Shown piece by piece: positions 12,831 through 15,726 of a DNA stretch of 26,854 nucleotides. The notes beneath the pieces are model-generated. The model saw only the letters and a program-made list of their open reading frames with translations, was not told the origin of the DNA and made no database searches. The stretch spans positions 1-26,854 of IMG/VR virus record IMGVR_UViG_3300042691_018638, one strand, 5' to 3'. The translations under genes were made by a program, and so were the position numbers. This stretch comes from a virus. Each line of letters starts with the position of its first letter. Position 1 is the first letter of the stretch.

Positions 12831-12872
12831 AAAAAAGAGGGGGTGGTGCTATTACTAACACCACCCCACCTC
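12831..12872 (-). terminator. Intrinsic terminator after the ssDNA-binding protein gene
   Basis: On the minus strand a GC-rich stem (12840-12848 pairing with 12859-12867, extended by GAGG/CCTC through a small bulge) with a 10-base loop is followed by a run of six Ts (bases 12831-12836). This is a textbook intrinsic terminator. It begins 7 bases after the ssDNA-binding protein stop. The primase SD (AGGAG) lies within 10 bases of the T-run, so reading through it is required for primase expression unless an internal promoter is used. Confidence 0.9.
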
Positions 12873-12878
12873 GGAAAA

Positions 12879-13733
12879 CTAGAACTCTTGGTCAAACAAC
12901 GATTCGATGGGAGCGGTAGGCGCCTTCACTACCCCGACCGCCGTAGCCTCTACGCCAGCTGTGCGTGAGACCAACTGTGGCATGACCGTCACGTTGTACG
13001 CCTTGACCACCTCGCCGTAGTCCTCGCCCTTGATAAGGTCGCGGATCGCTGCAGCTGGGTAAGGTTTGGCAAAGTTGGCCAAATCAAACACGGGGAGATC
13101 GTACACAAACTGAGCCAATGGGTCACGGTTCGTACCGAGGTACACATGGCGCTTGGTCTGAAGCCCTTTGCCACGGGTCGTGATTTGGAAATCAATCTGC
13201 GTGATCGGAATCAAGTTGTTGTCCGCATCCAGTGCCGACATCGCCAATGACTCCATGTCGTTGAGCATACCGCCAGCACCTTGACCACCAGAAACGCTGG
13301 CCTCGAGGATAACAACCGAGTTGTTCGGTGCCGGAGGATCAGTCATCACACGAGCTTCGCCCTTGTTGACCTGAATGAACTGGTTCTGCAAGTTGGCGTA
13401 GACGGTGCTACCGTCCTCCAGCTTAACCACCTTGCTCTTGTCGTACACGTTAATGAAGAACCGACGGCGTACGCTTTCCTGTACCGACTCGGGTAACAAC
13501 CGGCGAGTTTCGTTATCTACGAAAATGCGACGTTGTACTTCCACACCACCGCGCATCACCTTGAGCCACACGTGGAGCACAGTTGGCCCCAACAAAGGTT
13601 CCAGAGGATTCACGGGATCGGGAAGGAACCGAATGATACGGACACCCTCGTGCAAATCGAGGAACATGCTCTTTGCGCTTCCGGCCGACACTGACGCTTG
13701 CTGTGCTTCTTGAATCATCTTACCAAATGCCAT
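12879..13733 (-). CDS. Probable phage ssDNA-binding protein
   Basis: 284 aa. It reads like a phage single-stranded DNA-binding protein: a short N-terminal helix (MAFGKMIQEAQQ), a core segment GVRIIRFLPDP (about 30-40) like the RFLP motif of gp32-type proteins, several beta-rich segments and basic patches (RRRFFINVYDKSKVV). The C-terminus is a flexible Pro/Ala linker ending in ESLFDQEF, the acidic-aromatic tail used by SSBs to contact partner proteins. It would coat ssDNA and recruit polymerase and recombinase. ATG at 13733 has GGTGA 5-6 bases upstream; in-frame GTG codons at 13745 and 13742 are alternatives. It has its own predicted promoter and terminator, as expected for a protein needed in large amounts. 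The identification rests on motifs and context only. Confidence 0.7.
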   Translation of the reverse strand: MAFGKMIQEAQQASVSAGSAKSMFLDLHEGVRIIRFLPDPVNPLEPLLGPTVLHVWLKVMRGGVEVQRRIFVDNETRRLLPESVQESVRRRFFINVYDKSKVVKLEDGSTVYANLQNQFIQVNKGEARVMTDPPAPNNSVVILEASVSGGQGAGGMLNDMESLAMSALDADNNLIPITQIDFQITTRGKGLQTKRHVYLGTNRDPLAQFVYDLPVFDLANFAKPYPAAAIRDLIKGEDYGEVVKAYNVTVMPQLVSRTAGVEATAVGVVKAPTAPIESLFDQEF

Positions 13734-13734
13734 A

Positions 13735-13905
13735 TTATTCACCACTCTCCTGCATTACGGCGATTTCTCTCGCCATCGAATTTAGCTCATCAAGAATATC
13801 TTTCCGAACTACGCTGGTAACTATACCACGAGCTTCCAACCGTGTCAAGAGTCTTTTGATGTACTTCTTGATCACGCCATCAAACTTTTTGTTTAAGTGC
13901 TTCAT
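13735..13905 (-). CDS. Small basic helical hypothetical protein
   Basis: 56-aa protein, basic in its first half (KHLNKKFDGVIKKYIKRLLTRLEARG) and acidic in its second (KDILDELNSMAREIAVMQESGE). Two helices are likely. ATG at 13905 was preferred over the earlier ATG (13920) because GGAGA lies at the right distance; it overlaps the glycosyltransferase gene by 26 bases. The 3' end reaches to two bases before the SSB start, and the SSB's own promoter lies inside this gene. No known family is recognised. The position next to SSB hints at a replication-accessory role. Confidence 0.6.
   Translation of the reverse strand: MKHLNKKFDGVIKKYIKRLLTRLEARGIVTSVVRKDILDELNSMAREIAVMQESGE
13820..13848 (-). promoter_or_regulatory. 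Predicted sigma70 promoter for the ssDNA-binding protein gene
   Basis: On the minus strand TTGACA (13843-13848, perfect) is separated by exactly 17 bases from TATAGT (13820-13825, 5 of 6), which also has the TGn extended -10. It lies inside the small 56-aa gene and would start an mRNA about 80 bases before the ssDNA-binding protein ATG. With the strong terminator after that gene, it defines a short transcript carrying only this gene. Confidence 0.6.
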
Positions 13906-15088
13906 CAATAATCTCCACAAACTGACGCGCGATCACATCCCAGTTAAATTTCTTTTGGGTCATGTGTTCAAAACCGCGCTGACCTAGCTCCAGCCGATAC
14001 TGCTTGTCAGTGTACAGCTTGTGTAATGTGGCGATAGCACTTTCCATTTCAGTGACGTGATGAATTGTGTTCAAGCCACGATCAGTAAGCGCGGGCCATG
14101 GGTAGATCTCCATGTACTCGGCATTACCCTCTGGCCACTCGGCCAACGCTGAGTGACGTGGGATAATCACAGGACAGGCAACTGCCATCGCTTCGGCCAC
14201 TGGCAAACACCAGCCCTCTGCAGCGGTAGTAGTGAAGAACACATCGGCGACGTTATACACCATGTTGAGCTGCTCCACAGGTAGTCCCGCATCAGGACGG
14301 ATGTTTGGGGAGGAAATCGCCAACCGCTCCTCAATCCCGAGGTAGGTGGCCCACTGCAAGACATCGATACCGAAGTCCTGCAACGCACCGTGATAGTAAA
14401 AGCGCACGTTTGGAGGAAGGTCGTACCGCTTCACCCACTCGGCGAAGTAGTACATGGTGAGATCAATACGCTTGCGCGGTTGATTGCGTTGCAAACAAAG
14501 TACAATGTAATCATCCTCACCAAGCATCATGTTCTTCTTCAACGTCTTTTTGTCGGGTAATGGATAAAACGACTGCGTGTTAACTCCGTGAGGAATTACG
14601 GCTACATTTTTAAGCGCAATGTCGGGTGGTCTGTTCTCTAACTCGCGCTTGCCGAAGTTTGTATAGGATACAACACGATCGTATTGTTGAAGACCCTCCA
14701 CAAATTCACTCTTAATGTTCTCCGCATCGATCGGAGTGTAGGCGATAAACTTTGCCTTAAATGCTGGATTGTCCGCTTTGTACTTTGCAAAAACCGTAGC
14801 ATAATCACGGCAAATCCACGGGTCGTTCAACACAAACACAACGTCAGGTTGAATACGCGTCAGCATCTCGGCTAGACGCGTAACACCCCAGACCTCACCG
14901 CCAGACGACGCAGGGTACACCTTTAATCCTTCAATCAATGGGGAATAATCCCCGTAGTAGTTAACCCCAAGCACATGCAAGTCATAAATTTTCTTGAATG
15001 TACGTATAAGGTTAGTACTAACTACCCCAAATCCAGTTTGTACTGGAAAGTCTCCGATGTATAACATCTTTTGTACTGGTCGTGACAT
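13880..15088 (-). CDS. GT4-type (GT-B fold) glycosyltransferase
   Basis: 402 aa. It has two Rossmann-type halves as in GT-B enzymes. The N-terminal half has LYIGDFPVQTGFGVVS (9-24), a Gly-rich loop near the acceptor site. IPHGVNTQSFYPL (165-177) marks the domain junction seen in GT4 enzymes, QRNQPRKRIDL (200-210) is the nucleotide-binding loop, and AAEGWCLPVAEAMA (289-302) holds the E-x7-E motif (Glu291, Glu299) that binds the donor sugar. Retaining transfer from UDP-, GDP- or ADP-sugar is expected. There is no signal peptide, so it acts in the cytoplasm. ATG at 15088 has AAGGAG at good spacing. It is far from the other glycosyltransferases (171-1551) and lies in a replication/regulatory block. 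The acceptor is unknown. Confidence 0.88.
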   Translation of the reverse strand: MSRPVQKMLYIGDFPVQTGFGVVSTNLIRTFKKIYDLHVLGVNYYGDYSPLIEGLKVYPASSGGEVWGVTRLAEMLTRIQPDVVFVLNDPWICRDYATVFAKYKADNPAFKAKFIAYTPIDAENIKSEFVEGLQQYDRVVSYTNFGKRELENRPPDIALKNVAVIPHGVNTQSFYPLPDKKTLKKNMMLGEDDYIVLCLQRNQPRKRIDLTMYYFAEWVKRYDLPPNVRFYYHGALQDFGIDVLQWATYLGIEERLAISSPNIRPDAGLPVEQLNMVYNVADVFFTTTAAEGWCLPVAEAMAVACPVIIPRHSALAEWPEGNAEYMEIYPWPALTDRGLNTIHHVTEMESAIATLHKLYTDKQYRLELGQRGFEHMTQKKFNWDVIARQFVEIIDEALKQKV

Positions 15089-15100
15089 AACGTCTCCTTT

Positions 15101-15685
15101 TTAATAAACCTTTGGACCGATGATTGTGTTGAGCGGCTGACGGGTGGACTTCGGTTGAGCAATCTTTAGTTTAAACATTGCAGTTAGTTCCTCCTGCAGT
15201 GTGTCTAGCACGTGGTTCATGGATCGGGACGCTTCAGTATTTGTGTACTTTACGTCGGCGGTAGACCACGAGGTAAACGCAGAACTAGACGAGGATAGTT
15301 TGGCCAAATGTACTAGATAGGTCGCGGCTAGTATTATTGCATCTTCGTCGTTCTGCTCAATGATTGGCAACGGTGGTTGCACAAACAATAAAAACGGATT
15401 CCTAAACGTATCGCCTGTGCGTAGACCGCTTGGTAGAAACGCGTATCCATTCACTGTACTGCACCAAATAACACCGGCAGCTGGTGCGCCTGCTGGCTGC
15501 TCCGCAGCAATCAAACCCGAACTGAAGATTTGATACTTCGATCGCCACCGTTTTTGCAGGAACTTCACACCGTTTACCAATGACATGCGAATCAAAGGCT
15601 CCGAGTACTGATCCTCGTTGAAGTCACCTAAGCGAATGCGAACGGACTCAATCAAGTAGTCCAAATTCGTCATAGTTACAATCAT
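15101..15685 (-). CDS. Hypothetical protein, possibly a head-tail adaptor
   Basis: 194 aa. The N-terminus NLDYLIESVRIRLGDFNEDQYSEPLIRMSLVNGVKFLQKRW resembles the opening helices of phage head-tail connector/adaptor proteins, which carry a RLGD motif followed by helices. The middle holds short beta strands (FLPSGL, FVQPPLPI) and the C-terminus is helical (SRSMNHVLDTLQEELTAMFKL) with a basic tail. The assignment is weak. It lies just after the tail-fibre module and is the first gene behind the consensus promoter at 15697-15726. ATG at 15685 has AGGAG at 6 bases; ATG 15691 and ATG 15673 are alternatives that matter for how it is translated (see findings). Confidence 0.6.
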   Translation of the reverse strand: MIVTMTNLDYLIESVRIRLGDFNEDQYSEPLIRMSLVNGVKFLQKRWRSKYQIFSSGLIAAEQPAGAPAAGVIWCSTVNGYAFLPSGLRTGDTFRNPFLLFVQPPLPIIEQNDEDAIILAATYLVHLAKLSSSSSAFTSWSTADVKYTNTEASRSMNHVLDTLQEELTAMFKLKIAQPKSTRQPLNTIIGPKVY

Positions 15686-15696
15686 GCTCATCTCCT

Positions 15697-15726
15697 ATTA
15701 TACTGTTTTTATTTTTAGTTTGTCAA
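15697..15726 (-). promoter_or_regulatory. Consensus sigma70 promoter TTGACA-18-TATAAT
   Basis: Both hexamers are perfect matches on the minus strand: TTGACA at 15721-15726 and TATAAT at 15697-15702, with an 18-base AT-rich spacer. It starts 8 bases after the stop of the tail-fibre chaperone gene and is the clearest promoter in the window. It opens the transcription unit with the 194-aa protein, the GT4 enzyme and the SSB. The SD AGGAG of the first gene lies directly against the -10, so the predicted transcript would start at or after the SD. Confidence 0.8.

Follow-up and report, generated by a model that had tools for sequence, protein, structure and literature searches.

At sigma70-type promoters, RNA begins about 7 nt past the -10 hexamer (range 6-9), and the phage lambda cI gene is, besides its leaderless message, also read from a longer transcript with a Shine-Dalgarno (SD) sequence. 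The lambda cI mRNA is naturally leaderless (PMC4965119), and the strong promoters of PY54 cro and cI give leaderless mRNAs that have been mapped by RACE (PMC4488713). Translation from leaderless or short-leader messages has further phage precedent (PMC9031893), and in E. coli, an mRNA with both a 5′-terminal AUG and an SD can be translated in either mode (PMC4965119). In control of the T4 I-TevI and soc/e type, the choice of promoter decides whether a ribosome-binding site is usable, and the near (late) promoter frees a site that is hidden by a hairpin in the long transcript (PMC2988022).

Here, we analysed a 26,854-base IMG/VR virus record, a tailed-phage fragment (hereafter the window), in which a consensus promoter, P1, overlaps the ribosome-binding site of g196, a putative head-tail adaptor gene. 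As in lambda cI and in PY54 cro and cI, this promoter lies too near the start codon for an SD leader to be expected in its RNA (PMC4488713, PMC4965119). Those are repressor genes with the 5′ end at the AUG, whereas here the gene probably encodes a virion adaptor, the promoter stands between modules, and the predicted leader ranges among relatives from some 8-10 nt to below 0. As in T4 I-TevI and soc/e, the availability of the ribosome-binding site would differ by promoter, an arrangement able to set when a late protein is made from a polycistronic message (PMC2988022). In contrast to T4, the near promoter P1 would remove the ribosome-binding site, while the long transcript would keep it; single-sequence 120-nt folds in 11 relatives gave no shared hairpin over the SD, with a mean unpaired probability of 0.44-0.59 near the start. 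A literature search found no mapped 5′ ends for such a fusion of promoter and SD.

The promoter P1 overlaps the ribosome-binding site of g196

On the minus strand of the window, the sequence TTGACA-18-TATAAT (15726-15697) stands directly 5′ of AGGAGATGAGC-ATG 15685. The -35 hexamer TTGACA (15721-15726) is invariant in all 11 aligned relatives, and the spacer to the -10 hexamer TATAAT (15697-15702) is 18 nt, compared with 17 or 18 nt in relatives. The SD AGGAG (15692-15696) begins on the base immediately 3′ of the -10 hexamer and lies 6 nt 5′ of ATG 15685. All the elements of the consensus promoter with a fused SD described in the initial annotation are thus present, on the minus strand. By sigma70 spacing rules, the predicted transcription start zone covers bases 6-10 past the -10 hexamer (15687-15691, minus strand), within which G15689 after T15690 would be the likeliest start base from purine/pyrimidine preference, and the predicted leader before the adaptor start in the window is 3-6 nt. 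The further claim, that RNA with a canonical 5′ end would not include the SD, is supported by this geometry and by its conservation among relatives. The overlap of P1 with the ribosome-binding site is real and conserved as judged from sequence; its effect on translation is a prediction.

P1 is the sole promoter-like site within 9-22 kb that matches at 12 of 12 positions, and TTGACA-N15-20-TATAAT has one occurrence in the whole window, namely P1. A perfect TTGACA/TATAAT pair appeared in none of 100 shuffles of the window, and when the 60 nt upstream of the start were shuffled, a perfect promoter arose in 0-2 of 20,000 cases for each of six family members. Hence, TTGACA and TATAAT occur 16-18 nt apart, as in sigma70-type promoters, above chance. 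On the plus strand, a 9/12 promoter-like match overlaps P1 (15675-15704); chance matches of that grade were frequent in the scan.

The adaptor gene starts at ATG 15685

The codons ATG 15691, ATG 15685 and ATG 15673 share one reading frame. Comparison of homologue starts, which had been suggested as a check, points to ATG 15685, where the homologue protein alignment opens with M-I. In many relatives, an in-frame stop (TAG or TGA) occurs no more than two codons 5′ of the equivalent position, with TAG directly adjacent or, in L007 and L020, in the context TAA TGA ACC. Because of the alignment and the in-frame stops just upstream in relatives, the start of g196 (15101-15685, minus strand, 194 aa) is, on this comparison, ATG 15685. 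The proposed use of ATG 15673 is contradicted by the same stops and by the lack of conservation of this Met (residue 5), which is replaced by I, V or A in more distant relatives, and ATG 15691 is confined to the near-identical clade of the window itself. It is consequently most improbable that P1 is a chance consensus match, or that the pattern has no bearing on a gene that begins at 15691 or 15673. All that speaks for such a reading is the general caution that a consensus match is in itself no evidence of function, while the shuffles, the conservation of the promoter, the absence of a conserved Met at either position and the upstream in-frame stops already contradict it.

An AlphaFold2 model of g196 was of modest confidence (pLDDT 60.5). 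Its 11 best structural matches were all phage portal-tail or tail chains, T7 included (Z 6.3-9.7), while Foldseek E-values were not significant. The fold appears to be shared with podovirus portal adaptors of the T7 gp11 type, with moderate support, and the most suitable reading of g196 is as a head-tail adaptor of this type and the last virion gene.

The overlap is conserved while its spacing varies

Among the viral contigs, cultivated phages, and bacterial and archaeal genomes searched, relatives of g196 were found in viral contigs only; the cultivated phages yielded neither an adaptor relative nor similar DNA, and the bacterial and archaeal genomes no relative of the adaptor. TTGACA-17/18-TATAAT was found directly 5′ of the gene in every upstream region examined, with the variant TAAAAT in L015, and all 12 hexamer bases are kept in 12 of the 13 regions (gene relatives at 54-99% identity). 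The sequence of the promoter spacer differs among relatives. The distance from the -10 hexamer to the start is 11 nt in the window, 13 nt in L015, L017-L019, L021, L023 and L025, 15 nt in L004, 8 nt in L026, 5 nt in L020, and 4 nt in L027, which has a TTG start. The SD lies 6 nt from the start in the window and L017-type relatives, 5 nt in L015 and L004, 4 nt in L026, 10 nt in L027 and 11 nt in L020; relative to the end of the -10 hexamer, it begins at 0 nt in the window and L026, 3 nt in L015 and L017-type relatives, 5 nt in L004, and -11 nt in L020 and L027. Since this spacing is steadier to the start than to the -10 hexamer, the SD tracks the start codon and not the promoter. It stands 3′ of the -10 hexamer in most relatives and directly 5′ of it in L020 and L027, where it could be carried by longer transcripts only.

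RNA begun about 7 nt past the -10 hexamer would start after or within the SD in nearly all family members. The predicted leaders are 0 nt in L020 and 0-2 nt in L026, and in L027 a canonical 5′ end would fall inside or past the start codon, so that P1 could not sensibly serve the adaptor there.

In 6 of the 9 relatives' records having a match, the promoter before this gene is the sole perfect one, and the record G008, which carries L027, has 13. These ordinary sigma70-type promoters of G008 have the same TTGACA-17-TATAAT, but among the rest, those followed by an ORF mostly have the start 24-56 nt past the -10 hexamer, with the SD within the leader; one lies ahead of an apparent tRNA. Given this usual spacing, the overlap at g196 is not the customary promoter design of these phages. 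Behind several perfect promoters of G008 (L032, L034 and L035), a leader motif resembling GAGGTAGT recurs.

P1 may serve the genes behind the adaptor

Upstream of P1 on the minus strand lies a gene for a phage tail assembly chaperone (PF16778; 15735-15956), the stop of which is 8 nt before the -35 hexamer. Past g196, the gene order is a glycosyltransferase (phrog_2170; 13880-15088, minus strand) with its own SD AAGGAG (15099-15094), a small conserved ORF (13735-13905, minus strand), a T4 gp32-like single-stranded DNA-binding protein (SSB; 12879-13733, minus strand), a terminator, primase and helicase. The gp32 core fold was recovered in the predicted SSB model, which matched RB69/T4 gp32 with Z 8.0-10.0, the next row being 4.4. 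The strong intrinsic terminator of 12 pairs (12840-12867, minus strand) ends the unit downstream of P1; a terminator-like hairpin recurs behind the SSB gene in L015, L017 and L027, and the downstream ORF layout is similar in these loci. The stretch from the tail genes to g196 showed no terminator-like site, so read-through from the tail genes is possible. The window also encodes primase, a DnaB-like helicase, DNA polymerase, a UvsX-like recombinase and an exonuclease, and a tRNA-Arg (TCT) gene is located at 55-130 on the minus strand. The small ORF holds a look-alike, TTGACA-17-TATAGT (13848-13820); TTGACA sites within this ORF and within primase were rejected as further promoters, as coding could explain their conservation.

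On balance, we favour a reading in which P1, as a promoter of the sigma70 type, drives the downstream unit, and read-through RNA is the main source of the adaptor. Host RNA polymerase carrying a sigma70-type factor would recognise P1 as a genuine and strong promoter, squeezed into the short gap between the tail and replication modules. Its 5′ end would fall between the SD and the start codon of the adaptor, or at the start codon, and the RNA would lack a usable SD for this gene. It would mainly express the glycosyltransferase, the small ORF and the gp32-like SSB and stop at the terminator, and the adaptor, as a virion protein, would come mainly from the longer tail-gene read-through RNA that includes the SD, because P1 RNA would start past it. 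From what was observed directly, namely sequence geometry, conservation, gene order, the terminator and the folds of predicted models, we infer promoter activity, the 5′ end, timing (of both transcripts, from gene content only) and, for P1 RNA, a loss of adaptor translation.

A role of P1 for the downstream unit is suggested by several features: the promoter has been kept despite a changing interval between the -10 hexamer and the start, the site sits where the tail genes give way to the replication genes, the SD holds a workable spacing to the start (4-6 or 10-11 nt) on either side of the -10 hexamer, and ordinary promoter geometry is available to these phages, as in G008. Of the options initially raised, the one most in line with these features, as a proposal, is an SD used solely by transcripts that begin further upstream. 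Regarding the polymerase involved, a search of eight records yielded no sigma factor above the cut-off, and a search for phage RNA polymerase gave no match, but the control genomes likewise gave none. The DNA polymerase has 29% similarity to Pseudanabaena phages, which is weak and a mere hint at the host.

The following points count against this model. In L004, a 5′ end 6-7 nt past the -10 hexamer would leave the SD wholly or largely intact at the RNA terminus, and a P1 RNA with its first 590 nt untranslated could be subject to polarity, an argument for some synthesis of the adaptor from this RNA. In the main rival reading, P1 RNA would be translated as a leaderless message or one with a very short leader, with 70S initiation at AUG 15691 or 15685, and the read-through RNA would be read via the SD. 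The short predicted leaders in the window, L020 and L026 agree with this, a 5′ end at A15691 would place an in-frame AUG at the RNA terminus, and there are the published phage and E. coli precedents (PMC4488713, PMC4965119, PMC9031893). However, we regard such a dual-mode gene as rather unlikely, given that leader length varies across relatives, ATG 15691 is restricted to the window's own clade, and the TTG start of L027 would be removed or make a poor leaderless start. The leaderless message offered as an option in the initial annotation has likewise become less likely as the mode of a dedicated leaderless gene, since the predicted leader length is not conserved.

Fused promoters recur among viral contigs

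We further scanned viral contigs for TTGACA-17-TATAAT-N0-5-GGAG-N5-8-ATG and found at least 120 stretches, with the 17-nt spacer only and with loci that are not independent. Among 120 fused matches listed, 91 have an ATG that begins an ORF 60 aa or longer, versus 20% of random ATGs, a lenient control in which any ATG was taken and no SD required. The 91 proteins form 50 clusters, another g196 clade among them. When the SD was tightened to AAGGAGG, 33 stretches had the fused spacing, 1 matched the reversed-hexamer control, and at least 120 showed normal spacing (15-20 nt). The fused arrangement is therefore real and recurrent, yet rarer than ordinary spacing. Among the matches listed, there was no significant operon-internal excess of fused over normal promoters (26 of 46 versus 47 of 108 clusters, p = 0.16). 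In the cultivated Pelagibacter phage Mosig, a relative of the genes in one fused-promoter cluster has no TTGACA-TATAAT before it.

The upstream stop lies inside or after the -35 hexamer in 42 of 56 fused matches listed with a long upstream frame, compared with 19 of 62 at normal spacing, counts that include redundant loci. Such crowding would agree with the overlap being genome compaction without regulatory effect, in which case P1 may be weak in vivo or give a minor RNA. We consider this quite unlikely for g196, because all 12 hexamer bases persist across 54-99% protein identity despite a variable spacer and gene distance, a pattern not readily accounted for if the promoter were idle. Among the fused loci L042-L161, the upstream stop is a TGA within TTGACA in 16 of the 56 listed with a long upstream frame.

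Extending our preferred reading of P1, we tentatively suggest that phages may recurrently put a strong internal promoter on the ribosome-binding site of the gene next downstream; the new transcript would then bypass this gene and express those behind it, with the g196 family as a conserved example. If so, a promoter placed on a ribosome-binding site would be a simple way to uncouple the translation of one gene from a shared operon, and a single promoter placement would set which genes are translated per transcript, without RNA structure or protein. For annotation, it would mean that a good SD need not be used by the message of the nearest promoter.

In a few perfect promoters, TATAAT lies between inverted repeats of 8-11 bp (L041 on the minus strand, L182, L240, L340, L142 and L192). 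These repeats mostly differ in sequence, one example being AACCCTTTCTC-TATAAT-GAGAAAGGGTT. Arms of at least 8 around TATAAT were found in 7 of 767 promoters, versus 0 of 767 with shuffled flanks, and perhaps these repeats are repressor operators.
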